NCBI GenBank assembly: GCA_037893245.1
Contig: JBAIAA010000412.1
Location: forward strand, 310,001 to 374,000
Source of the DNA: Crossaster papposus
Lineage: Eukaryota > Echinodermata > Asteroidea > Velatida > Solasteridae
Direction of reading: 5' to 3'
Length of the DNA stretch: 64,000 nt
The position numbers and the translations under genes are program-made. Positions 20,524 to 54,500 of this stretch are shown here, one piece after another (the first letter of the stretch is position 1; every line of letters begins with the position of its first letter). The notes beneath the pieces were generated by a model, which searched no databases, was not told the DNA's origin, and saw only the letters and a list, made by a program, of their open reading frames with translations.

Positions 20524-20531
20524 TATAAAAG
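20524..20531 (+). promoter_or_regulatory. TATA box of the intronless gene at 20634
   Basis: TATAAAAG lies 110 bp upstream of the ATG, with a plausible start site near 20553. It is one of the few well-formed TATA boxes next to an ORF in the window. Confidence 0.55.
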
Positions 20532-20633
20532 GCAGCAACCGCATTCACAGCGTTCAGAGGACTACATTTTTTTGTGGACAATTTTGTCAAGAATACCTGC
20601 ACCATCTTGAAGTACAGTTTACAACCGAACATC

Positions 20634-21338
20634 ATGGAGGAAAATATGCCTATCAACGGGGACGAACAAATCCTGAACAATGATGAAATCATAAAAGCCA
20701 TCAAGCAATGGTTTTGGACAGGAACAAATTGCGATAAGTTGATAGACGAACTGAATCGGAAAACCAGTACTGAAGGTTCCTCATTGACCCGAAACTTCAT
20801 CAGTCATGGAAGGAGGCCTTGCATATATGGGGTTGAGTTAAACTATGACTTGAAGGATGACGGTAAAATGTGGAAGTTCTGCAAGATTGGGTGCACCGCA
20901 AATATTGCGAAACCCAAAACTCAGACTCGAATACAGAACGTGAAGTATGAGGTAAATAAAGCATACAAAAATCAGTCAGCAGCTGATGAGCTCTTCTGCC
21001 TGCCTATTCACCCAACTGATTGCACACATGTTACGGAGGTGGAGAAAACGATAAAGGGTAAATTCGGACACGAAGTATCCATGGAAATAGCGGAGAGGTT
21101 AAAGTTTCCTGTGCCGACAGAGTGGGTCATCACAACTCAAGATTTCATCACCGAGTTCAAACAGAAAATGGCTGACATAGAGGGAGAACAAGGATATGCA
21201 AGCACTCAAGTATTTGAACACTATGAATTTAACAAGGACGATAATCCACCGCCACGTGAACTGGATAACCTCCTTTACACAGCAATCGTGGATGCTATAG
21301 TTGACAAATTCGATCAGATGCATATTGTTGACGAATAA
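20634..21338 (+). CDS. Intronless 234-aa protein, T5orf172/GIY-YIG-like
   Basis: The start chosen is the ATG at 20634 (context ATCATGG); the frame is open 20 codons further upstream but has no earlier ATG. The middle of the protein reads RRPCIYGVEL, about 15 residues later FCKIGCT, then an arginine region, then TEVEKTIKGKF and ERLKFPVPTEW. This order (a YGV strand, KIG.T, R, E..i...f, E.F/W) matches the T5orf172/MUG113 branch of the GIY-YIG nuclease superfamily, common in phages, large viruses and fungi. I recognise it by pattern only. The N-terminal 60 residues and the acidic C-terminus match nothing I know. The stop overlaps an AATAAA (21333-21338). A TATA box lies upstream, a retroelement tail before that, and a short transposon copy 250 bp downstream. 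Confidence 0.65.
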   Translation: MEENMPINGDEQILNNDEIIKAIKQWFWTGTNCDKLIDELNRKTSTEGSSLTRNFISHGRRPCIYGVELNYDLKDDGKMWKFCKIGCTANIAKPKTQTRIQNVKYEVNKAYKNQSAADELFCLPIHPTDCTHVTEVEKTIKGKFGHEVSMEIAERLKFPVPTEWVITTQDFITEFKQKMADIEGEQGYASTQVFEHYEFNKDDNPPPRELDNLLYTAIVDAIVDKFDQMHIVDE

Positions 21339-21584: not shown

Positions 21585-21944
21585 TTAAAAGGTAGGATAC
21601 GTACACCATTTGCAGATATCTAAAAAAATTACTACCGAATTATCAAAAAATATCCTACTTATTTTAAAGTAATAATGATTGTACTTGTAGGCATTCAGCG
21701 AAATGATTGCCCTAGATATTCTGTAATTGTTCTGAAACGGCGATCGCAGAAAAAACCAAAAAACATAAGAATAACTGCCCGACGCAGGTTGAAAACGAAT
21801 GCCATTTTTCGTGCTTTTCTCGGCATCCATGATTGTAAAACTTCGGACAGGTCAGTTTAACGATATTTACTATGAAATACAACCCCCCAAATTCACCTAT
21901 TCCTTATAATTCAAACAATTACCGCTGGTGTATCATACCTTTAA
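21585..21944 (+). mobile_element. AGGTAGGATACACCAT short element (TTAA target)
   Basis: The ends AAGGTAGGATAC and GTATCATACCTT are inverted and bounded by TTAA. The interior contains the shared blocks GCGATCGC, ATAAGAATAACTGCC and AAATACAACCCCCCAAAT. It has no transposase. This family has ten copies in the window. Confidence 0.85.
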
Positions 21945-25085: not shown

Positions 25086-25814
25086 GGAACCGGTTCCTGA
25101 CATCAACGGTCGGGTACTTGAGTACCCGTTGCCGATGCACAGCCCTGTAAACAAGTGTCTTTCGGACAAAGTAAATGATTCTATACCCCCAACTTGTCTG
25201 CAACTCGTCCTGGGTATAAAAAAAAAGTTATGTACTACAATAATTATATTACGTTTATCTGGTAAACGGTTTATATTATTATATTTTGTTTGAGTTTTGG
25301 AAATTTGTTAATTTCTTAAATCTGTATTGTCTTAGAATTCTATGTACAAACTATTTTTAACAATGATTTAGTCAGTGAATCCATTGTACCTCACAGACTT
25401 AAATAGCATTGTACATGTACATCAACGGTCGCGTACTCAGGTACCAGTTGCCGATGCACAGCTCTGTAAACAAATTTCTTCCGAACAAAGTGAATGACTC
25501 TATACGCCCAACTTGTCTGCAACTCGTCCTGGGTGTGAATTACTACGGCCCTAACTGTACATAATTGTGATGGCTTGTTAGTAGTAAGTCTGAAATTATA
25601 GGCTAACTTGAGTTTTGTGTTTAGCAAAAAAAAAAAAAAAAATTATGTACTACAATAATTATATTAGTACTTTTATCTGAAAAACGGTTTATATCTAACA
25701 ATTATTGTTAAAGCTTTGAAATGTTAATTTCTTAAATCTGTAATGTCTTAGAATTATATGTACAAACTATTTTTAACAATGATTTAGTCAGTGCATCAAT
25801 TGTACCTTACAGAC

Positions 25815-26200
25815 TTAAAGGTAGGATACACCATTTGCAGATATCGACAATTTTTACTACCAAGTCATTAAGAAATGTCTTACTTATTAGAAAGTAAATA
25901 ATGATTGCAGGCATCTAGCAAAATGTTTTCGCTAGATATCCTGTATTGTTCCGAAAAATTAAATTGTATAAACAAAAATCACAATCGCCGAACGGCCATC
26001 GCGAAATGAACAAGAACAACATAAGAACCGCTGCCCGGCGACGGTTTAAAACGAATGCCGTTTTTCTTGCTTTTTTCAGCATTCATGATTATCAATCTTC
26101 GGACAGGTCAGTTCAACGATATTTACTATCAAATACAACCCCCCAAATTCACTCATTCGTGATAATTCAAGCAATTACCAATGGTGTATCCTACCTTTAA
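25815..26200 (+). mobile_element. AGGTAGGATACACCAT short element
   Basis: TTAA at 25815-25818 and 26197-26200, with full inverted ends. It is the duplicate of the copy at 32399-32770, so it predates the segmental duplication. Confidence 0.88.
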
Positions 26201-27587
26201 ATAGCATTGTACATGTAAAGTATACAACATGTAGAGAGAATAAACTAATTAAATGATGGATGAAAAGTGGTCCTGATTTTGAATCATTTGTAAATGAGCC
26301 TTAATTCCCCCCCTCAAAAAAACCCCAACCCAACAGAATAATTAGTTACTGCTAAGCAAGTATAGCATAACTTTTCTGCTGTAAAGCAGTTTAATTTATA
26401 ACTATTATAAATGGTAACTTACTGTTAATAACCCCACCCCAAAAAAAACAACCAAAAAAACCACCAACAACCCCAATTAAACAAAAAAATTCAAGGTTGA
26501 TGCCTGTATGTTTTGCATTCCTAAAAAAAGTCAAATGTTTGCATTATGTATAAACGATGACCTCAAATGACCCTTTGACCTCAGTAATCCGATGTAGAAT
26601 TGTATCTTCCCACCCAAGGGTCACTGCTCAAGTGGTAAAGTTTCATCAACATCCATGAAAACATAATTGTTCTTTTTCAAAAACTTAACCTGAAACCTCG
26701 AGCTATAAAAAAAAAGCATGGCCATACAGTCATACAGAATTTAGGACTGGTTCATTCCCCGAAAACTTTGTTAAGGCAACACAAAAATGAAAAGAAAAAA
26801 GGTTTATTATACAAAATAAAAAGTAAGATAGGATTGCCATTGTTACTAACAAAAATTATGCTGTAGGACAGCGGACAGTTCTTAATTTCCTTAACAATAA
26901 AAAACTTCCACATAACGCAGTACAGGCCAGATGAGCACCAGTGCACACATGCCTTGTGCCCACAAGAAGCTCCCATTAGCACCCGTTTACCAAGTGAAAT
27001 TACCCAGGAAATTCATAGAAAAGTTCCAATATGAGTCAGTGTTTATTTATATCACTGTCCAGTTCTTTCTTTTTCCAAATCGCCACAAGGAAGTACATGT
27101 ACTAAACAATAAAAGGAAGTACAAACAAAAGGTGACACGTCAGTAGATGTTTATAAAGCACACTGTGTCCAGCAAAGAAGAAGACGGAGAAACAAACACG
27201 GCCAAGTGATTGCAAAATACAAATCCTTAAACTTTCACATCAGAGGTTAAAGAGAGTAGTAAGATCTGCTCGTAACTGTGGCAACCAACAACCTTTATTT
27301 ACGAACTAAGGCCCGGCGGATTTGAGGCAGTGTGTCCGATGGTCAAGAACATTTCTGGAAGTTTGTTCAGGCAGCTTCTGAATGAATGACTTGAACCTGT
27401 TATCTCCCAATTTAAAAAGACGCTGCAAAAGCAAATGCTGTTTTTACGTTAGGAACTTTAAAAACAACTATAGGCACTTCTTGACCTTAAAGAGAATGAG
27501 CTCTGGACCTTGAAGAAGTTACGCGCTAGCGAAGAACTCTACAAGAGCTTGTCTAGCTTTGTTTCCCTCGGGCGACAAACTTCAAGC

Positions 27588-28582
27588 ATGAATGCTACGA
27601 TCGACGTGCTTGGGGGGAAAAGATCGCGTACGGCATCATTGCCGCACTGGGCATCGCGGGCAACAGCCTGGTGGTGTACGTGCTGACGCACATGGTCAAG
27701 TCTCGCAAGGGCAACATCAATATTCTCATCATCAACCAATCGCTGGTGGGCCTGGCTACCTCCGTGCTCCTGATCCTCTGCTTCCTGACCCCTGAGCCTC
27801 CCTTGCCTGCAGCTCCGACGGCAGCCCGGTTCCTCTGCTCCATCTGGAACTTCAAGTACCTCTTCTGGGCGACCATCATCTCATCCACGTTCAACCTGGT
27901 CTGTTTGACACTGGAGCGATTCTTCGCCATCGTCTACCCGTTCCGGTATCGGAACTGTCGCCTGTTCAATTGGCCCAAGTCTCTCGTTCTAGCAGTAGTC
28001 CCCGTGTTTGTGGGCTACTCCTACCAAGCCTACTTCCCCGCCATGCACGTTGTGGAGGACAGCAAATGCGTTGTGAATGAGTTCTCCAGCCGTGCGGCGC
28101 AAATCGTCTACGCCATAATCATCCTCCTGGTGACCTACCTCGTGCCGCTCATCATCATGACGTTTGCTTACGTCAAGATCTACAGAGCCCTGAAGAGCGA
28201 GTCAATCGGCAACATCACCGGTGAAAATTGCCAGACAACGGATGCTGCGAGGAAGCGGCATCACAACCCCAACGACATCAACGAGAAGGCTCTCCGCAAC
28301 ATCGTCAAGACCCTGATCCTAGTCTACGCGGTCTTTGGTCTTTGCTGTGCTCCCAACGAAGTCTTCTACTTCTACTTCAACGTGAGCGGCAATCGGCACA
28401 TCAACGAAACTGTCTACAATGTCACCATTGGTCTGGCCTTCTTTAACATGTGTGCCAACCCCTTCATCTACGCGTTCAAGTACCGACGGTTTCGGGATGG
28501 ACTTCTGCGTGCCATGCCTTGTCTTGGACGGCTGATATGCGTAACTGACACCAGCTTGATGCAAGAAGACAATTTTCCTTAG
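27588..28582 (+). pseudogene. Rhodopsin-type GPCR, decayed copy
   Basis: It is about 96% identical in protein to the intact gene at 34140-35150. Sixteen bases are missing just after the eighth codon (after GACGTGCTT), so the ATG at 27588 runs into a frameshift inside helix 1. From about 27671 the frame is open to the normal stop, which could at most give a receptor lacking helix 1. Two core residues are also altered: the helix-2 aspartate (LVDLATS becomes LVGLATS) and the helix-6 tryptophan (GLCWAP becomes GLCCAP). Together these argue for loss of function. Confidence 0.88.
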
Positions 28583-28744
28583 TTAATAGTTATTCAATTC
28601 CGCAGATTAAGATGGACGGTCACAGCATTGGTCACGCTATGACCAATCAAATGAATTATTTATTTGATTTATTTAGTTGTTTTATTTAGTTGTTGTATAA
28701 AACAAATTATAATTTGGCAAAAGTAAGGTATTGCATTTCACATG

Positions 28745-31870: not shown

Positions 31871-32398
31871 AGAATTGTATCATAAGTTCATTATAAAACT
31901 TTCTTACAAACGACATTTAAAAATCTTTCACTGTCATCGTCTGAGAAGTTACCGTAATTTATCAAATTGGTTACGAGAACTTAAACCCATAATCTGGAAC
32001 CGGTTCCTGACATCAACGGTCGGGTACTCGGGTACCAGTTGTTGATGCACAGCTCTGTAAACAAATTTCTTCCAAACAAAGTGAACGACTCTATACCCCC
32101 AACTTGTCTGCAACTCGTCCTGGGTATGCATTACAACGGCCCTAACTGTAAACAATTGTGATGGCTTGTTAGTAGTCTGAAATTATAGGTAGACTTGAGT
32201 TTTGTGTTCAGCAAAAAAAATATATATTATGTACTACAATAATTATATTACTTTTATCTGGTAAACGGTTTATATACTAACAATTATTGTTTGAGCTTTG
32301 GAAATTTCTTAATTTCTTAAATTTGAATGTCTTAGAATTCTATGTACAAACTATTTTTAACAATGATTAAGTCAGTGAATCAATTGTACCTTACAGAC

Positions 32399-32770
32399 TT
32401 AAAGGTAGGATACACCATTTGCAGATATCGACAATTTTTACTACCAAATTATGAAAGTAAATAATGATTGCAGGCATCTAGCAAAATGTTTTCGCTAGAT
32501 ATCCTGTAATTGTTCCGAAAAATTTAAGTTGTATAAACAAAAATCACGATCGCCGGACGGCCATCGCGAAATGAAATGAACAAGAACAAAATAAGAACCT
32601 CTGCCCGGCTACGGTTGAAAACGAATGCCGTTTTTCTTGCTTTTTTCAGCATTCATGATTATCAATCTTTGGACAGGTCAGTTCAACGATACTTACTATC
32701 AAATACAACCCCCCAAATCCACTCATTCGTGATAAATTAAGCAATTACCAATGGTGTATCCTACCTTTAA
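32399..32770 (+). mobile_element. AGGTAGGATACACCAT short element
   Basis: TTAA at both ends. Duplicate of 25815-26200. Confidence 0.88.
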
Positions 32771-34139
32771 ATAGCATTGTACATGTAAAGTATACAACAT
32801 GTAGAGAGAATAAACTAATTAAATGATGGATGAAAAGTGGTCCTGATTTTGAATCATTTGTAAATGAGCCTTTCCCCCCTCAAAAAAAACCCCAACCCAA
32901 CAGGATAATTAGTTACTGCTAAGCAAGTATAGCATAACTTTTCTGCTAACTGTAAAGCAGTTTAATTTATAACTATTATAAATGGTAACATACTGTTAAT
33001 AATTCCACCCCCCCCCAAAAAAAAAACCCCCAATTAAACAAAATTGTAATTTTCCAAGGTTGATGTCTGTATGTTTTGCATTCCTAAAAAAAGTCAAAGG
33101 TTTGCATTATGTGTAAACGATGACCTCAAATGACCCTTTGACCTCAGTAATCCGATGTAGAATTGTATCTTCCCACCCAAAGTTTAATCAAAGTTTCATC
33201 AACATCCATGAAAACATAATTTTTCTTTTTCAAAAACTTAACCTGAAACCTCGAGCTATAAAAAAAGCATTGCCATACAGTCATATAGAATTTAGGACTG
33301 GTTCGTTCCCCGAAAACTTTGTTTAGGCGACACAAAAATGAAGAGAAAAAAGGTTTATTATACAAATTAAAAAGTAAGATACGATTGACATTGTTACTAA
33401 AATAAATGATGCCGTTAGGACAGCTGACAGTCCTTAATTTCCTTAACAATAAAAAACTTCCCCATAACGCAGTACCAGCCAGATGAGCACTGGTGCACAC
33501 ATGCCTTGTGCCCACAAGAAGCTCCCATTAGCACCTCTACCAAGTGAAATTACCCAGGAAATTCATAGGAAAGTCCCAACATGAGTCAGTGTTTATTTAT
33601 ATCACTGTCCAGTTCTTTCTTTCTCCAAATCGCCACAAGGAAGTACATGTACTAAACAATAAAAGGAAGTACAAACAAAAGGTGACACGTCAGTAGATGT
33701 TTGTAAAGCACACTGTGTCCAGCAAAGAAGAAGACGGAGAAACAAAAACGGCCAAGTGAGTGCAAAATACAAATCCTTCAACTTTCACATCAGAAGTTAA
33801 AGAGAATAGTAAGATCTGCTCGTAACTGTGGCAACCAACAACCTTTATTTATGAACTAAGGCCCCGGCGGATTATGTGTCCGATGGTCAAGAACATTTCT
33901 GGAAATTTGTTCAGGCAGCTTCTGAATGAATGACCAGAACCTGTTATCTCCCAATTAAAAAAGACACTGCAAAAACAAATGCTGTTTTTACGTTAAGAAC
34001 TTTAAGAACTTTAAAACTACTATAGGCACTTCTTGACCTTAAAGAGAATAAGCTCTGGACCTTGAAGAAGTTACGCGCTAGCGAAGAACTCCGCAAGAGC
34101 TTGTCTAGCTTTGTTTCCCTCGGGCGACAAACTTCCAGC

Positions 34140-35150
34140 ATGAATGCTACGATCGACGGGCTTCTGACGAATCTCTCCACGGGGGAAAAGATCGCGTACG
34201 GCATCATCGCCGCACTGGGCATCGCGGGCAACAGCCTGGTGGTGTACGTGCTGACGCACATGGTCAAGTCTCGCAAGGGCAACATCAATATTCTCATCAT
34301 CAACCAATCGCTGGTGGACCTGGCTACCTCCGTGCTCCTGATCCTCTGCTTCCTGACCCCTGAGCCTCCCTTGCCTGCATCTCCGACGGCAGCCCGGTTC
34401 CTCTGCTCCATCTGGAACTCCAAGTACCTCTTCTGGGCGACCATCATCTCGTCCACGTTCAACCTGGTCTGTTTGACACTGGAGCGCTTCTTCGCCATCG
34501 TCTACCCGTTCCGGTATCGGAACTGTCGCCTGTTCACCTGGCCCAAGTCTCTCGTTCTGGCAGTAGTCCCCGTGTTTGTGGGCTACTCCTACCAAGCCTA
34601 TTTCCCCGCCATGCACGTTGTGGAGGACGGCAAATGCGTCGTGAACGAGTTCTCCAGCCGTGCGGCGCAAATCGTCTACGCCATAATCATCCTCCTGGTG
34701 ACCTACCTCGTGCCGCTCATCATCATGACGTTTGCTTACGTCAAGATCTACAGAGCTCTGAAGAGCGAGTCAATTGGCAACATCACCGGTGAGAATTGCC
34801 AGGCAACGGATGCCGCGGGCAAGCGGCATCACAACCCCAACGACATCAACGAGAAGGCTCTTCGCAACATCGTCAAGACCCTGATCCTAGTCTACGCGGT
34901 CTTTGGTCTCTGCTGGGCTCCCAACGAAGTCTTCTACTTCTATTTCAACGTGAGCGGCAATCAGCACATCAACGAAACTGTCTACAATGTCACCATTGGT
35001 CTGGCCTTTTTCAACATGTGTGCCAACCCCTTCATCTACGCGTTCAAGTACCGACGGTTTCGGGAGGGACTTCTGCGTGCCATGCCTTGTCTTGGACGGC
35101 TGATATGCGTAACTGACACCAGCTTGATGCAAGAAGACAATTCTCCTTAG
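34140..35150 (+). CDS. Rhodopsin-class G-protein-coupled receptor, 336 aa, single exon
   Basis: Seven helices can be placed. Helix 1 has GN at N31; helix 2 has D60; helix 3 is preceded by C89 and ends ERF (115-117) instead of DRY. Helix 4 has W134, helix 5 P192, helix 6 CWAP (W259, P261) and helix 7 NPFIY (296-300). C165 lies in extracellular loop 2 and can pair with C89. Two N-glycosylation sites lie near the N-terminus (NAT, NLS). The start is the ATG at 34140, shared with the pseudogene copy; the frame is open further upstream but has no earlier ATG. The ligand is unknown; intronless rhodopsin-class receptors of this sort are expanded in echinoderms. The stop TAG (35148-35150) is followed at once by a TTAA holding a piggyBac-like insert, so the 3' untranslated region has been replaced. 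Confidence 0.93.
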   Translation: MNATIDGLLTNLSTGEKIAYGIIAALGIAGNSLVVYVLTHMVKSRKGNINILIINQSLVDLATSVLLILCFLTPEPPLPASPTAARFLCSIWNSKYLFWATIISSTFNLVCLTLERFFAIVYPFRYRNCRLFTWPKSLVLAVVPVFVGYSYQAYFPAMHVVEDGKCVVNEFSSRAAQIVYAIIILLVTYLVPLIIMTFAYVKIYRALKSESIGNITGENCQATDAAGKRHHNPNDINEKALRNIVKTLILVYAVFGLCWAPNEVFYFYFNVSGNQHINETVYNVTIGLAFFNMCANPFIYAFKYRRFREGLLRAMPCLGRLICVTDTSLMQEDNSP

Positions 35151-35154
35151 TTAA

Positions 35155-36782: not shown

Positions 36783-38157
36783 TTCAAAAGATAATGAATT
36801 TCTTTTAAATTGTCTCTTTCTTATCCAGCCCTGACCAGTTGGCGCAACTCAGATTAAACCCAACCACAATAAATTGTATCCTGTGCAGTCATGCACGAAA
36901 ACTAATTGAGTGAAAATGTCACCAAAAGAAGCAGGAATGGTTACTCTAAAAGTCCATACGAAAATATCTTATCTATATTGCTGCAGAATAAAACTATATG
37001 GCCAATTGAAAAAGTGTAAATTTGTTTTACTCGCACTGTACATAAAGCAAAATGGCATACATTTTATATCTGTTTGTTCTCCCTCCCTCCCCCTACTAAA
37101 TCTGCATTTTCTCCAGACTGCAGACCCATATGTTCTTTATTTCTCTTTTCTGTTGGCGGGTACACATGATTTATACCGGTATCGACCTTTGAAATGTTTA
37201 CACTTCCACTGGCAGCATAATGCAGCTGTGTGTGTATGCATTACTATTATTATTATTTTATGGTTTAATAAAAGTTGGTAAGAGGCAGCCGCAAAGCTGA
37301 CAAAAAGATTTAAAGATAAGTTAAGACATTTTAAGAGAATATCAATATCAATATACAAAAAGAGTGCCCTATCTTGATATTGTCAGATCCCGTTTGAACA
37401 AAAAAATGTGCGGCCCGGTCTGCAATTCTACGTATCTCTCCAAAATTCAAATACAAAAAAAGAAGATATTTTATAGAATCAGTCCCATGTGGACCATCCA
37501 AAATATGTTGACCTGGTATTGTTCACGGCGGGATGCAGGAAATTTATATTTTTTAAAATAATTTATCGGAGGTGGGGGAGAGAATACAATTTTTTTTTTA
37601 AAAACCTGCCATGAAATCTCATGTGTTGTGTTGTCTGCATTATAGCTTAGGTGTAATAGGGGTCTGTGTACAAAGGCTTGTACTATTATTGAGACTAGCG
37701 GTGGGAGAAATTGCAACCGAATCGTAAACCGTATAATGAGTATTTGATTTCATTGGATGTTCAGAAACAGCTTACAATCATGCCAACAAAAAGTGATGAG
37801 CAAGGTGCCCTAAATAGACTCTGTATCGTTTGCAGGATTTAGTAACCACTGGGTCTCTACCAAAACAATAGAGAGCTGTACTGTGGGGTAATAACAAATT
37901 GATGGGATCTCTCTAATAAGTCAAATGGGCAGGCTATAAAGAAACCACTAGTATAAAGTGAATGCAGTTACAATCAGAGACCACGGGGCACATTGGAGGA
38001 TGTTGCAGTTGCTTTCTTTCAGCTGTGTCAAAACAAAATGGAAGACTTAATTTTTTGTTTAGGTTGGTTTTGAATATTCAGTTTTCAAAATCTAATCCGA
38101 ATAGTGAAATTAAAACCAAATATAAAAATTTAAATCAGTTTTAAATCCTAGCACTAA

Positions 38158-38542
38158 TTAAAGATAGGATACACCATTGGTAATTGCTTGAATTATCATG
38201 AATGAGTAGATTTTTGGGGTTGTATGTTATAGTAAATATCGATTTACTGACCTGTCCGAAGTTTCACAGTCATAGATGCCGAGAAAAACACGAAAAACAG
38301 CGTTTTTTGTCAACCGGCGTCGAGCAGTTATTCTTATGTTATCTTAGTTTTTTCGCGATCGCCGTCCGACGATCGCGAATTTTCTTCAATTTTTTTATTT
38401 TTCTGAATAATTACAGGATATCTAGCGCCATTATTTTGCTGGATGCCTAGAATCAATATTTACTTTCAAATGAGTAAGATATTTCTTGATTATTCGGTAG
38501 TAAATATTTTTGATATCTGCAAATGGTGTATCCTACCTTTAA
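38158..38542 (-). mobile_element. AGGTAGGATACACCAT short element, left copy only
   Basis: Inserted at GCACTAATTAA, with TTAA on both sides. The paralogous site at 41510-41523 reads GCACTAATTAAGACAGGG, uninterrupted. Confidence 0.92.
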
Positions 38543-38817
38543 GACAGGGGTGGTTATAAATTTGCCGCTCGAAATGTACATGTTCGCGCGGGAGGATTTT
38601 TTGTGTATACACGTAGGCCTACTATAATTTGATTTAAATAAAACCCAATGGCCGTGTGCACTGTCAATTTTTCTAAAGAGGCTTTGGAATTCAAAAGCCA
38701 AGGTGCCCATGGACAACCACACGTACTCCAAACATGGGTGGGTGAACATGTACAGCAATTTTACAAAAAGGGAACAAGAACTGTTGTACTCAGTGTATGC
38801 AACTACCAAACCTTTAA

Positions 38818-39027
38818 CCCTTTGCACTCAGCCCCGTGCTACATCTGACTTATAAGTCCCTTAAAAGCTCCTGGGGGTCCAAATATTCCCCCCCAAAAAA
38901 TATAGCCCTATTTGTAAGCTTTCCAATGATACATAATTATATGGGATTTGTACACTGTAAATGATATTTGTGTATACAAACTAGCAACACCTACAAAGTC
39001 TTCGAAAACAGGCCTGAGTTTAAAGGG
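38818..39027. mobile_element. CCCTTTGCACTCAG short element (piggyBac-like ends)
   Basis: TTAA flanks (38814-38817 and 39028-39031); ends CCCTTTGCACTCAG and CTGAGTTTAAAGGG. A duplicate copy lies at 41796-41998. The first seven bases equal those of the piggyBac-like element at 35155. Confidence 0.8.
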
Positions 39028-39742
39028 TTAAAGAGGTAGGATACACCATTTGCAAGTATCAAACATTTTTACTACCGAATTATTAAGAAATATCTTACTT
39101 ATTTGAAAGTAAATATTGATTGTAGACATCCAGCAAAATAATTGCACTACAGATCCTATAATTGTTCCGAAACGGCGATTGCAAAAACAACACCAAAACA
39201 ACATTAGAAACACTGCCTGACGCCAGTTGAAAACGAATGCCGTTTTTTTTTTTTTCCTCGACATCCATAATTGTAAAACTTCGAACAGGTCAGTCAAAGG
39301 TACCGGTAGTATACACCCTTGGTTGAATTATCATGAATAAGTGGATTGTTGGGGTTGTATTTTATAGTAAATATCGTTTAACTAACCTGTCCGAAGTTTT
39401 ACAATCGTGAATGCCGAGAAAAGCATGAAAAACAGCGTTTGTTTTCAACCGGCGTCGAGCAATTATTCTTATGTTATTTGTGTTTTTTTATTTTATAAAA
39501 TAATATTTTTTAGAATAACTAAAGGATATCTAGCGCAATCGTTTTGCTGGATGCCTAGAATCATTATTTACTTTCAGGTGAGTAAGATATTTCTTAATAA
39601 TTCGGCAGTAAATTGTTTTGATATCTGCAAATGGTGTATCCTACCTTTAAACGACATTTACTATAAAATACAACCCCCCCCAAAAATTTTTCACCCATTC
39701 ATGACAATTCAAGCAATTACCAATGGTATATCCTACCTTTAA
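39028..39742 (+). mobile_element. AGGTAGGATACACCAT element interrupted by its own family
   Basis: The outer halves are 39028-39297 and 39647-39742. The break lies where intact copies read GTCAGTTAAACGATATT, i.e. in an internal TTAA. Confidence 0.88.
39294..39650 (-). mobile_element. Inner, reversed AGGTAGGATACACCAT element
   Basis: It is inserted in opposite orientation into the outer copy. The left flank is TCAA (one base decayed) and the right is TTAA. Confidence 0.85.
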
Positions 39743-40434
39743 CTTTCCAAATAAGAAATATAATTTTCCACACAGGAAACAGGGTTACCGCTGTCAAGGA
39801 CAAAATGAACATGTGGAAGGAAATAAAAGACCTGTACCATTTGCTTTTGCTGTAAAATGTGGACAAAATGAGTCTGATGTGTTACAAATTTGTTTAAGTT
39901 TTACAGTTGGTTAGAAAAAGCAGAAAATAAGCTTTCATTTGATACATGGCACAACTCTGTAGTGTAATTATGCATTGGTCGTAAAAAAAATTTGAAAAAT
40001 GCTTTTTCTCCATTATATTAAAAATATCTTTGTACAGAAATGAAGATTTAAAATTGTAGTGCTTTATTGGATGTTATGGTAAGAGAATGACAACAACTTA
40101 TGACTTTACTTTAAAGTAAACAAAAGTTGGGATCACTTCGAAACTGAAATTCAGTCAACAACAATTTTGTTTTTCAAATCACATGATCCAAACCAGGAAA
40201 TAAAAACCAATATGAAAAGCATTTTATGACCCTGTAGCACACTCAAACGGACGTGCCTGGTTTTGTGATCAGTTATTGATACCGATATACAAGCTGTAAA
40301 TTCAATAGATCAGATCGCATGACACGCAACAATTCATGTTTAGAAATACCAACACAACAAAAATTGGTTCCTAAAAACAGCAAAACTCAAATCTCTTTTT
40401 TGTCTAGAGGTGTATACTGGCACTTCACTATTTC

Positions 40435-40730
40435 TTTTGGTACATATAGCGTTATGGGGACAACCCATAGGGTTTGTGTGTAAACTGAAATCTCTCTAAT
40501 CTCAAACTCAGAACATTCTAAAATTCTAAAATTTTCAGGATTACCCTAATTTGTCCTCTTCTTCATTTTCTTTCATTATACCCTAACCCGATTTTCCCTT
40601 GTTCTACCTTTACTGAAGACCCAACGCGCTATGGGGACTCGAAAATGTCCCCACTACTCGGTCTGTCTTTTCCAAACAAAAGACCCTGTCCACCTAACGC
40701 GGTGAGTGCCTACCCTATTATGCATACATC
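40435..40730 (+). repeat. Dispersed TGTCCCC-containing repeat
   Basis: Inverted relative to 28745-29100. It shares CCCATAGGGTTTGTGTG and CCCTAACCC blocks. Confidence 0.45.
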
Positions 40731-40737
40731 ATGACTT

Positions 40738-41367
40738 AGTTCTGAAAAGCACCAATATAACCTTTAATATGGCGAAACAAACATTTAAAATGAGGTGCAT
40801 TTTTAAGGATTGCATTCAATAAATTACACTGCATGGCCAATTTACAAGGGTTCCATAATAGTGGCATATTTAACTGAATAATTTGAATCTCGTCAACAAA
40901 GAATAATTGGCAGCACTGCAAGTAAGTCACATAAAGCCCAAGTCTTACTAGGACCTGCGATTCTCCGCGACCAGTTCGGTCGTGCGACTAGGGCCGGTCG
41001 TGGATATTTCCTGAGATTTGAGCCTAGCAGTCTCATTGTAAGACCAGTCGTGCGACCTCACCACTACTCAAGACTACGTACGAGTGGTAAGGTGCAGTCG
41101 CACGACTGGCTACGACCAATCGTGCGACCGATGCAGAACAACTCACGGCTATTTGTACACCTTGTTATAAGGTCGCACGACTAGTCTTGCTTAGTTGTGC
41201 AACTAGTTGTGCAATCGGGTCTACTCGCACGACAAGAAGTGCTAGTAGTCATGCGACTACTAGTCGTGCGACTGTCGTACGACAGGAGAATCCTACGATC
41301 AGCCACGACAATGAAGAACCACCCAAGACTTGTTTCACGACCGTCGCACGACAAATGAAGACTAGCC
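40738..41367. repeat. Dispersed repeat rich in GTCGTGCGAC, copy 1
   Basis: It matches 50170-50825 closely. Its right half consists of irregular copies of GTCGTGCGAC and its complement. The short frames inside (for example 41187-41408) are by-products. Confidence 0.8.
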
Positions 41368-41795
41368 TGCTTTCTTTCAGCTGTGTCAAAACAAAATGGA
41401 AGACCTAATTTTTTGTTAGGTTGGTTTCGAATATTCAGTTTTCAAAATCTAATCCGAATAATGAAATTAAAACCGAATATATAAAAATTTAAATCAGTTT
41501 TAAATCCCAGCACTAATTAAGACAGGGGTGGTTATAAATTTGCCGCTCGACATGTACATGTTCGCGCGGGAGGATTTTTTGTGTATACACGTAGGCCTAC
41601 TATATTTTGATTTAAATAAAACCCAATGGCCGTGTGCACTGTAAATATTTCTAAAGAGGCTTTGGAATTCAAAAGCCAAGGTGCCCATGGACAACCACAT
41701 GTACTCCAAACACGGGTGGGTGAACATGTACAGCAATTTTACAAAAAGGGAACAAGAACCGTTGTACTCAGTGTATGCAACTACCAAACCTTTAA

Positions 41796-41998
41796 CCCTT
41801 TGCACTCAGCTCCGCGCTACATCTGACTTAGTCTCTTAAAAGCTCCTGGGGGTCCAAATATTCCCCCAAAATATAGCCCTATTTGTAAGCTTTCCAATGA
41901 TACATAATTATATGGGATTTGTACACTGTAAATGATATTTGTATATACAAACTAGCAACACGTACAAAATCTTCAAAAACAGGCCTGAGTTTAAAGGG
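41796..41998. mobile_element. CCCTTTGCACTCAG short element, duplicate
   Basis: TTAA flanks; same ends as 38818-39027. Confidence 0.8.
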
Positions 41999-42379
41999 TT
42001 AAAGGTAGTATACACCATTTGCAGATGTCAAAAATATTTACTACCGAATTATTAGGAAATATCTTACTCATTTGAAAGTAAATAATGATTGTAGGCATCC
42101 AGCAAAATGATTGCGCTAGATATCCTGTAATTATTCTGAAAAATAGAATTTTATAAAGAAAACTTCGCGATCGCCATCCGGCGAGCGCGAAAAGAACAAA
42201 GATAACATAAGAATAACTGCTCGACGCCGGTGGAAAACAAACGCTGTTTTTCGTCCTTTCCTCGGCATCCATTTTATTCGGACAGGTCAGTTAAACGATA
42301 TTTACTATAAAATACAACCCCCCAAATCTACCTATTCATGATAATTCAAGCAATTACCAATGGTGTATCCTACCTTTAA
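41999..42379 (+). mobile_element. AGGTAGGATACACCAT short element, right copy only
   Basis: TTAA at 41999-42002 and 42376-42379. The left segmental copy has a single TTAA at this point. Confidence 0.9.
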
Positions 42380-42734
42380 AGGTAGGATACACCATTTGCA
42401 AGTATCAAACAATTTTTACTACCGAATTATTAAGAAATATTTTACTTATTTGAAAGTAAACAATGATTGTAGACATCCAGCAAAATAATTGCACTACAGA
42501 TCCTATAATTGTTCCGAAACGGCGATTGCAAAAAAAACCACCAAAACAACATTAGAACCACTGCCTGACGCTATAGTTCAAAACGAATACCGTTTTTCTT
42601 GCTTTCCTCGACATTCATGATTGTAAAACTTCAAACAGGTCAGTTAAACGATATTTACTATAAAATACAACCCCCCAAATCCACCCATTCATGATAATTC
42701 AAGCAATTATCAATGGTGTATATCCTACCTTTAA
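42376..42734 (+). mobile_element. AGGTAGGATACACCAT short element
   Basis: It shares its left TTAA with the previous element. It corresponds to the outer element at 39028-39742, here uninterrupted. Confidence 0.88.
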
Positions 42735-43469
42735 CTTTCCAAATAAGAAATATAATTTTCCACACAGGAAACAGGGTTACCGCTGTCAAGGACAAAATGA
42801 ACATGTGGAAGGAAATAAAAGACCTGTACCATTTGCTTTTGCTGTAAAATGTGGACAAAATGAGTCTGATGTGTTACAAATTAGTTTAAGTTTTACAGTT
42901 GGTTAGAAAAAACAGAAAATAAGCTTTCATTTGATATATGGCACAACTCTGTAGTGTAATTATGCATTGGTCGTTAAATTGTTTTGAAAAATGCTTTTTC
43001 TCCATTATATTAAAAATATCTTTGTACAGAAATGAAAATTTAAAATTGTAGTGCTTTATTGGATGCTGTGGTAAGAAAATGACAACAACTTATGACTTTA
43101 CAGTAACTTTGAAGTTACTTTGAAGTAAACAAAAGTTGAGATCACTTCAAAACTGAAATTCAGTCAACAACAATTTTGTTTTTCAAATCACATGATCCAA
43201 ACCAGGAGATAAAAACCAATATGAAAAGCATTTTATGACCCTGTAGCACACTCAAACGGACATGCCTGGTTTTGTGATCAGTTATTGATACAGATATATA
43301 CAAGCTGGAAATTCAATAGATCAGATCGCATGACACGCAACAATTCATGTTTAGAAATACCAACACAACACAAATTTGGTTCCTAAAAACAGCAAAACTC
43401 AAATCTGTTTTTTTGTCTGGAGGCGCATACTGGCATGTTACCCTAACCCCCTAGGCCCCTTTTGCTAGC

Positions 43470-51519: not shown

Positions 51520-54500
51520 ATAGATTGTGACCCTGTCGAGCCAGCCGAGCTATGCCGTGTCGACCCGTCCACTGAACACCTTCCTTCACCCTTCTCCGGC
51601 CCATGTCTGCGATTCAGAGACCTGCGGGAATCGTCTCCCGACATCGTCAACGCAAGGAGTGACCTGTCTAGTCTGAGGTCGTTGACAAGAATGTCCGAGT
51701 TACAGTCACTTGAGGACGCTGTTACATCAGTCTGAATTAAATCAAAGAAATAGTGATGATTCCTAATTGAGCCATTCTGTAAATTTAGGATACCTTTTTT
51801 CCTATCCGTGTTACATCTGACACCTCCAAGATTATATTTTTATATTTCTAAAGATCTTTCTAAAAATCTAGAAATTATGGCAAAATAATCCTGGTGCAAA
51901 CTGGTTAAAGGTAGTATACACCATTTGCAGATATCGAAAATATTTACTACCGAATTATTAGGAAATATCTTGCTCATTTGAAAGTAAATAATGATTCTAG
52001 GCATCTAGCAAAATTATTGCGCTAGATACCCTGTAATTATTCCGAAAAATTGAATTTTATAATAAAATTTTGTATTATAAAATTTTAACATAAGAACAAC
52101 TGCTCGACGCCGGTTGAAAAAAAACGCATTTTTTTGTGCTTTTCTCGGCCTCCATGATTGTAAAACTTTGGACAGCTCAGTTAAACGATGTTTACTATAA
52201 AATACAACCCCCCAAATCTATTTATTCATGATAATTCAAGCAATTACCAATGGTGTATCCTACCTTTAAGAGATGACTTTCACAGTTTTAAAAGTTTTAA
52301 AAGCATACTCTATTAGGACCAAATTTATCAAAAGCCATTTTTTTGTTTAAGTATTGCGGTTGAGGATTTGATACATACATTGACCACATCTGCTAAGCTG
52401 GGGCCCCGCAGCATATCCAGAAACTTGGCGTTCTTGCCTAAAATCCTGAAGGACGAAACCAGAAAGAAGAATTAGTACAACTGAGTAACTTTTGAGATTT
52501 TAACAGCACCACTATTAGGCAGGGACGAAGTTGAGTCCCCCACAAGGCCATCACAAGTCTTCCAATTCATATCAAAAGCTATTCAAATGAGCTTTGACCC
52601 AAGCACGAGTCCAGTCACGAGTCCAGTCACGAGTCCAGTCACGAGTCCAGTCACGAGTCCAGTCACGAGTCCAGTCACGAGTCCAGTCACGAGTCCAGTC
52701 ACGAGTCCAGTCACGAGTCCAGTCACGAGTCCAGTCACGATTCCAGTCACGAGTCCTTTCACGAGTCCTTTCACGAGTCCTTTCACGAGTCCTTTCACGA
52801 GTCCTTTCACAAGTCCTTTCACAAGTCCTTTCACAAGTCCTTTTACAAGTCCTTTCACAAGTCCTTTCGCAAGTCCTTTCGCAAGTCCTTTCGCAAGTCC
52901 TGTCACAAGTCCTGTCACAAGTCCAGCCACAAGTCCAGCCACAAGTCCAGCCACAAGTCCAGCCACAAGTCCAGCCACAAGTCCAGCCACAAGTCCAGCC
53001 ACAAGTCCAGCCACAAGTCCAGCCACAAGTCCAGCCACAAGTCCAGCCACAAGTCCAGCCACAAGTCCAGCCACAAGTCCAGACTTGTGAAGGGACTGGT
53101 GAAGGGACTGGTGAAGGGACTGGTGAAGTGACTGGTGAAGTGACTGGTGAAGTGACTGGTGAAGGGACTTGTGAAGGGACTTGCGAAGTGACTAGCGAAG
53201 TGACTTGCGAAGTGACTTGTGAAGTGACTTGTGAAGTGACTTGTGAAGTGACTTGTGAAGTGACTTGTGAAGTGACTGGTGAAGTGACTTGCGAAGTGAC
53301 TTGTAAAGTGACTTGTGAATGACTTGATTACAACTCAGATTTTTGACCTACTACGAGTGTTTTAGTCGAGACAAAGAACGAGACCAGGTCTCGAGACCAC
53401 CATCACTACCTACTACTTTACCTTTGAACTGGGCTACATTTTTGGCGGTTGTAGCCAATTACCGTTTCGGTTGTTGGTTAAGCATTTCAACAACCTTGAA
53501 TGTATATTTTTATTTTGGCTAAAAAACAATACACCCAAAACACTATATTATAAACAAATGTCATAAAGTTGATTTGGCTTTATAGCATTTTATTATTTCA
53601 TAAAAGTTTCAAAGAATGTACCTAAAATTCGCATATGAGAGGTTTTTTTTACCATTTAAGCCAATCGATTTAAAGGTAGTATACACCATTTGCAGATATC
53701 GAAAAAATTTACTACCGAATTATTAAGAAATATCTTACTTATTTAAAAGTAAATAATGATTGTAGGCATCCAGCAAAATAAGGGCCCTAGATATCCTGTA
53801 ATTGTTCCAAAAAATTGAATTGTATAAACCAAAATTCATTCTCGCCGTCCGGCGAGCGCGAAAAAACAAAGATAACATAAGAATAACTGCTCGACGCCGG
53901 TGGAAAATAAACGCTGTTTTTCATGCTTTTCTCGGCATCCATGAATGTAAAAATTCGGACAGGTCAGTTAAACGATATTTACTATAAAATACAACCCCCC
54001 AAATCCACCCATTCCTGATAATTCAACAAATTACCAATGGTGTATACTACCTTTAGGGAAAGGAATGTAGCCCGTTACCTCTGCGTTGCAGCCTGATGCG
54101 TCAGAGACGTCTCGTACATCTTCTGAATTCGTTTCCTCTCGTAATCCCGCATCCTTGCCTTGAGACGGTACTCCTCCCTCAGTCTGTTTGCCTCAGGGTC
54201 CTCCTTAGGAGGCTCAAGGTCCATGTTGAAGCAGGATAACTGGGGAAACTCCACCTGAAAGTAATGGGCCCTCTTTATTTAGGACTTTAAAAGGTACAGT
54301 TAGACCTGTCTGTTAGCAGCGAGCAAGGCTGGAAATGTCTGTTAGCAGCGAGCAAGGCTGGAAATGTCTGTCAGCAGCGAGCAAGGCTGGAAATGTCTGT
54401 CAGCAGCGAGCAAGGCTGGAAATGTCTGTCAGCAGCGAGCAAGGCTGGATTTGTCTGTCAGCAGCGAGCAAGGCTGGATTTGTCTGTCAGCAGCGAGCAA

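Follow-up and report, generated by a model that had tools for sequence, protein, structure and literature searches.

Two neighbouring copies of a DNA segment that differ by whole transposable elements raise the question of whether the elements arrived after the segment was duplicated or were lost from one copy afterwards. Such a locus lies in a 64,000-nucleotide stretch of the starfish Crossaster papposus (assembly GCA_037893245.1, contig JBAIAA010000412.1, positions 310,001 to 374,000 of the forward strand), the whole of which is called the window here and supplies the coordinates. Two proteins, a receptor at 88% identity and an Ig-domain protein at 76%, agree with a starfish that is related to Patiria miniata and is probably another species. 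A sequence-only reading had described in it two copies of a 2-kb segment and three short elements, each confined to one copy and bounded by TTAA. We consider it likely that these elements are non-autonomous Kolobok-type miniature inverted-repeat transposable elements (MITEs), moved by a transposase encoded elsewhere, and that all three were inserted after the duplication.

Alignment and self-comparison confirm the two copies, which are collinear from end to end once the three elements are removed:

38010..40422, plus strand: left copy of the duplicated segment
41368..43435, plus strand: right copy of the duplicated segment

Elements aside, the copies differ in length by no more than 17 bp. The divergence measurement proposed by the sequence-only reading was carried out on three flank stretches, where 43 substitutions (30 transitions and 13 transversions) in 1305 aligned bases correspond to a Kimura two-parameter distance (K2P) of 0.034; one alignment was without the first 150 bases of the copies, a part that was aligned in other comparisons.

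The copies are distinguished by three complete elements, 349-377 bp in length, whose ends are near AGGTAGG...CCTACCT: E4 and E6 are present in the left copy only and E7 in the right copy only, and every one of these presence/absence differences stops exactly at the family termini and TTAA. The elements, with their target site duplications (TSDs), and the two clean empty sites are as follows:

38162..38538, minus strand: E4, MITE of 377 bp, left copy only; TSD TTAA at 38158-38161 and 38539-38542
41517..41520, no strand: empty site of E4 in the right copy, a single clean TTAA in the context GCACTAATTAAGACAGGG
39298..39646, minus strand: E6, MITE of 349 bp, left copy only, nested in an older element, A (alignment)
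42644..42647, no strand: empty site of E6 within element A of the right copy, a single clean TTAA in the context GTCAGTTAAACG
42003..42375, plus strand: E7, MITE of 373 bp, right copy only; TSD TTAA at 41999-42002 and 42376-42379

The earlier description of E4 as a left-only element facing a clean site in the right copy holds in full. For E6, which is reversed relative to its host element A, the interval 39294-39650 is indeed left-only and the right copy has one TTAA; the left TSD, supposed to be TTAA, reads TCAA (39294-39297), and the right one is TTAA (39647-39650). One end of E6 is also about 6 bp longer than usual. Decay after insertion was considered for this odd end and is weakened by a similarly extended end at one (L054) of 29 other E4-like loci; the extension may have been inherited rather than produced by damage after landing. 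The interval of E7 (41999-42379) is likewise confined to the right copy as claimed, with the qualification that its counterpart in the left copy is not perfectly clean: there, TTAA (39028-39031) is followed by two extra bases, AG (39032-39033), and then by element A. This is a gain of bases and not a loss, for which slippage of AG or a footprint might be considered and which stays unexplained. Two of the three empty sites, those of E4 and E6, are thus perfect TTAAs and do not show the imprecise deletions that the sequence-only reading had named as counting against it; the third departs from a clean site by two bases. The second TTAA of E7 (42376-42379) is common to element A, and E7 and A form a head-to-tail pair.

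The sequence-only reading had missed element A and a CCCTTT...AAAGGG repeat, bounded by TTAA, directly to its left:

39034..39738, plus strand: element A, left copy, split by E6 into 39034-39293 and 39651-39738; TSD TTAA at 39739-39742
42380..42730, plus strand: element A, right copy, intact; TSD TTAA at 42731-42734
38818..39027, no strand: CCCTTT...AAAGGG repeat, left copy; TTAA at 38814-38817 and 39028-39031
41796..41998, no strand: CCCTTT...AAAGGG repeat, counterpart in the right copy; 41792-42002 with its flanking TTAA

Element A occurs in each copy, the two versions differing at 20 of 345 bases (K2P 0.061), and the family was therefore present before the duplication. The CCCTTT...AAAGGG repeat is also common to both copies; it has a high copy number, and its copies on other contigs have the same type of TTAA-bounded ends. 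It is a separate TTAA family, a piggyBac-like MITE whose ends fit piggyBac. Its TTAA is common to adjoining Kolobok-type MITEs, and the chain in the right copy consequently reads piggyBac-like MITE, TTAA, E7, TTAA, A, TTAA. Further junctions of this chain type were found at two other loci (L065 and L039), and at L086 with a decayed second element.

How large the family is, and how consistently it uses TTAA, was examined in the 1.02-Gb assembly (1841 contigs). The family end is AGGTAGGATACACC; the 16-bp end occurs at 19 places in the window with at most 3 mismatches (mean 0.42 and largest count 4 in 100 shuffles) and has 31,541 exact matches in the genome, where the pattern read backwards has 0. 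The 100 end places that were listed all belong to the forward strand of a single contig; 58 of them have a neighbour no more than 165 bp away and so sit in arrays, which means that dividing the number of ends by two would not give the number of elements. A genome search with E4 began with 7027 first-look candidates and scored 40 of them. On the contig of the 100 listed places, 28 places were sampled (8 returned by the end search and 20 picked outside arrays); a partner end lies at a distance of 181-406 bp in 19 of them, and TTAA is exact on either side in 11 of the 19. Exactly TTAA precedes 81 of 100 distinct family ends (at most 2 substitutions) drawn from 65 sources, which are 75 minus a phage contig, four array loci, three same-locus stretches and two overlaps; by a looser criterion, TTAA stands at or near both ends of 22 of 30 E4-like loci, E4 included. 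Eight of the nine sampled ends that had no close partner were extended, and all proved to be MITE body or end arrays, none of them autonomous-looking; the ninth (L006) overlaps another locus (L005). The family end had 0 matches in contigs of prokaryote genomes. A match to the 20-base end in a viral contig (L001) was dismissed as chance, lying inside what by eye is an apparent phage DNA polymerase frame, with no inverted partner listed.

At three places on contig C1 (L070, L071 and L072, at about 805-806 kb, 958-960 kb and 1387 kb), the MITE terminus AGGTAGGATACACCATTGGTAATTGC is repeated in tandem at intervals of about 54 bp, in arrays that continue into the MITE body at L070 and L072 and not at L071. 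Judging from their repeat unit, these arrays are a MITE-derived satellite.

By its target and its 5'-RR...YY-3' ends, the family is classed as a Kolobok-type MITE and not as piggyBac. The 4-bp TTAA duplication, seen in the ends counted above and in the one-TTAA empty sites, together with termini of AGGTAG...CTACCT or near variants, agrees with the mark that separates Kolobok from piggyBac, namely a TTAA TSD with 5'-RR and YY-3' (PMC9587614, PMC6004289). A TTAA target is equally a property of piggyBac; the piggyBac terminal motif CC[C/T]T is absent, as the ends of the family are AGGT...ACCT, whereas the adjoining 38818-39027 repeat does fit it. The elements are short (349-379 bp in the window), have inverted terminal repeats and reach a high copy number, as MITEs do.

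The closest likeness is to the Kolobok elements of Xenopus, the T2-MITEs, which share the TTAA duplication, AG or AGG starts (RR...YY), short non-coding bodies and many copies, although T2 ends are AGGRR and those of the starfish family AGGTAGG (PMC6004289); the T2-MITE Xmix has also spawned a tandem repeat, in that case from an internal segment (PMC6004289). The solo long terminal direct repeats (LTDRs) of KolobokP have the same RR...YY ends, occur in an asterinid starfish and are found in head-to-tail layouts (PMC9587614), but they measure about 450 or 660 bp (PMC9587614), in contrast to 349-379 bp in the window and 181-406 bp in the sampled places, and the tandem neighbours E7 and A belong to different subfamilies. 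Coral CMITEs, which are of the piggyBac type, also use TTAA, and a pair of alleles with and without the element was the evidence for movement there (PMC2872659). As far as we have checked, the family is a new one within a known kind; the literature was searched by words and not by sequence, so it may already have a Repbase entry, and in these word searches Patiria and Kolobok came up together only in PMC9587614.

The order of events that we favour is one in which the piggyBac-like MITE and the MITE A would have settled side by side at TTAA sites before the segment duplicated in tandem. E4 and E6 would then have entered TTAA sites of the left copy, E6 within A, and E7 would have entered the right copy at the TTAA bordering A, producing the head-to-tail pair with one TTAA in common. 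Movement was most likely by cut-and-paste into TTAA, with a Kolobok transposase supplied in trans. The exact termini and TTAA targets bear out part of the earlier claim that the family moved at least three times after the duplication and in both copies; the direction of the events is unproven, because a precise removal would look identical, and we infer insertion on the following grounds. KolobokP excisions are described as losing 1-5 flanking bases (PMC9587614), so the footprint-free sites of the right copy favour sites that were never occupied, with the reservation that the excision study was made in a clam and may not carry over to starfish. Moreover, in an alignment of 63 copies, E7, E4 and E6 lie 5.4%, 7.4% and 8.5% from the majority base, compared with 12.0-13.2% for A and 12.6-13.0% for E2 and E3, two elements that predate another duplication in the window; the median of 53 genome copies is 5.0%. 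The lower distances of the three movers fit a late arrival. The share of private bases, found in no other copy of this alignment, is 0.53% in E4 and 0.81% in E7.

Several observations weigh against this reading. The extra AG at the left E7 site could be an excision footprint, and the left TSD of E6 is TCAA. E9 and E10, two further window members whose ages are unknown, lie near E6 in their distance from the majority (8.7% and 9.0%), and the share of private bases in E6 (2.62%) is not below that in A (2.05-2.34%). E4 stands at K2P 0.072 from the majority sequence of the 29 copies most closely related to it, which themselves reach at most 0.063, and the majority of the larger alignment flatters E4, as 29 of the 63 copies were picked for likeness to it. 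No fresh parent was seen for any of the three, since the closest other copies are only 91.2-94.8% identical: the closest to E4 is at 93% among the best 40 of the 7027 genome candidates, and within the 63-copy alignment the values are 92.5% for E4, 91.2% for E6 and 94.8% for E7. Element divergence cannot date the moves in any case, because a cut-and-paste element carries its old mutations along, and the flanks may date MITEs poorly, since the two versions of A are less alike (20/345) than the flanks are (43/1305; Fisher p 0.039). Because the age signals are mixed overall, we have lowered our confidence in insertion after duplication and raised that in loss.

Loss would mean that at least one of the three elements is older than the duplication and later left one copy in a precise event, either transposase excision that restores TTAA or a deletion from TTAA to TTAA. 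PiggyBac, which likewise targets TTAA, is known to excise precisely (PMC7351741, PMC2872659), and the AG at the left E7 site, the private bases of E6 and the distance of E4 from its nearest relatives would all suit this account. We nevertheless think it unlikely: the ends are Kolobok-like and not CC[C/T]T, KolobokP excisions are described as imprecise (PMC9587614), the movers are nearer to the whole-family majority than the shared elements, and three insertions alone require fewer events than three prior insertions followed by three exact losses distributed over the two copies. It is also quite improbable, in our judgement, that the two copies are alleles of a single locus strung together by mistake in the contig, their differences being ordinary allelic insertion polymorphisms. 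That idea draws on the 485-bp flank 38543-39027, whose full-length matches among the best 40 of 508 genome candidates are two, both at the present locus, with no separate haplotype contig (the remaining 38 of the 40 cover its last 210-225 bases or so only), and on the heterozygosity of 5.16% in a related starfish, Patiria pectinifera (PMC10511450), which exceeds the 3.4% seen here. A pair of loci on different contigs (L017 and L026; 94.6% over 1430 bases and 89.1% over 763) would fit alleles this diverged; it breaks off and was left out of the allelic pairs, though it could be allelic. Against misjoining, three different-contig pairs homologous over 2.5-3.4 kb diverge by only 0.0003, 0.0060 and 0.0063 compared with 0.034, a hint from few pairs among 68 loci (L002-L069) gathered through MITE similarity. 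Furthermore, the sequences outside the two copies do not match each other in self-comparison at an E value of 1e-8, and a spacer of 945 bp with two other repeats separates the copies. Genuine tandem copies are the preferred reading. At L017 and L026, where a Kolobok-type MITE holds a nested piggyBac-like MITE, movement of the two as a unit was rejected because the outer flanks are partly homologous too; the arrangement is most simply a duplicated or allelic locus.

The head-to-tail order of E7 and A, with a single TTAA between them, and the presence in Patiria miniata of KolobokP, which forms dimers (PMC9587614), could suggest that the pair belongs to one KolobokP composite, as its terminal direct repeats or as a dimer, instead of being two independent insertions. 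This is hardly credible, given that E7 and the right-copy A differ by K2P 0.169, too much for one composite, that both are shorter than 380 bp where KolobokP repeats measure about 450 or 660 bp (PMC9587614), and that no internal region lies between them. A broader proposal that we hold to be very doubtful is that the family tends to land in the TTAAs of earlier insertions, building chains that share single TTAAs, that its 54-bp terminus was amplified into satellites, and that these are linked steps from MITE to satellite, of which the duplication caught the first. The right copy before insertion has 16 TTAA sites, 4 of them in or at the edge of A, and two of the three insertions fell on these 4 (P(>=2)=0.16), which shows no preference of the family for inserting into its own members.

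With insertion after duplication as the preferred explanation, three filled/empty pairs and an older shared element within one recent duplication make target choice, insertion order and relative age readable at a single locus. Related empty site (RES) analysis of ATon elements made the same comparison of filled and empty flanks for target site and movement (PMC3422177); the present locus has three such cases, along with a shared older element, in one tandem duplication. Should both the duplication and the insertions still be polymorphic in the population, they would be ready markers for recent movement of Kolobok-type MITEs. The locus is a clean and well-preserved case of well-known mobile DNA rather than a new type of system, and as a multi-event related-empty-site record it is of modest interest.

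The other family members in the window are these:

21589..21942, plus strand: E1, diverged member (end search, self-comparison)
25819..26196, plus strand: E2, common to both copies of a second tandem duplication (end search, alignment)
32403..32766, plus strand: E3, counterpart of E2 (K2P 0.040 to E2)
51909..52265, plus strand: E9, flanked by TTAA (end search)
53674..54052, plus strand: E10, with TTAA on the left and TTAG on the right

The second tandem duplication pairs about 25.4-30.7 kb with 31.9-37.3 kb (K2P 0.052 over the main part), and the family at the E2/E3 site predates it, being in both copies. Each of its copies has one receptor-like frame (25419-28586 and 32010-35154), and the right copy is broken at 35151 by the end of a TTAACCCTTTGCAC repeat. 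Elsewhere in the genome, a 1.3-kb stretch occurs twice on C1 about 107 kb apart (L007 and L009, K2P 0.046) with the MITE in both, and two identical 3.4-kb stretches lie 76 kb apart on C717 (L046 and L047). Adjoining E1 is an open frame of 269 residues (20529-21338) that by eye may resemble a GIY-YIG-type domain. Between E9 and E10, at 52604-53326, a 12-bp tandem array of CACAAGTCCAGT changes at 53082 to units of GACTTGTGAAGT, and the two arrays are partly complementary to one another.

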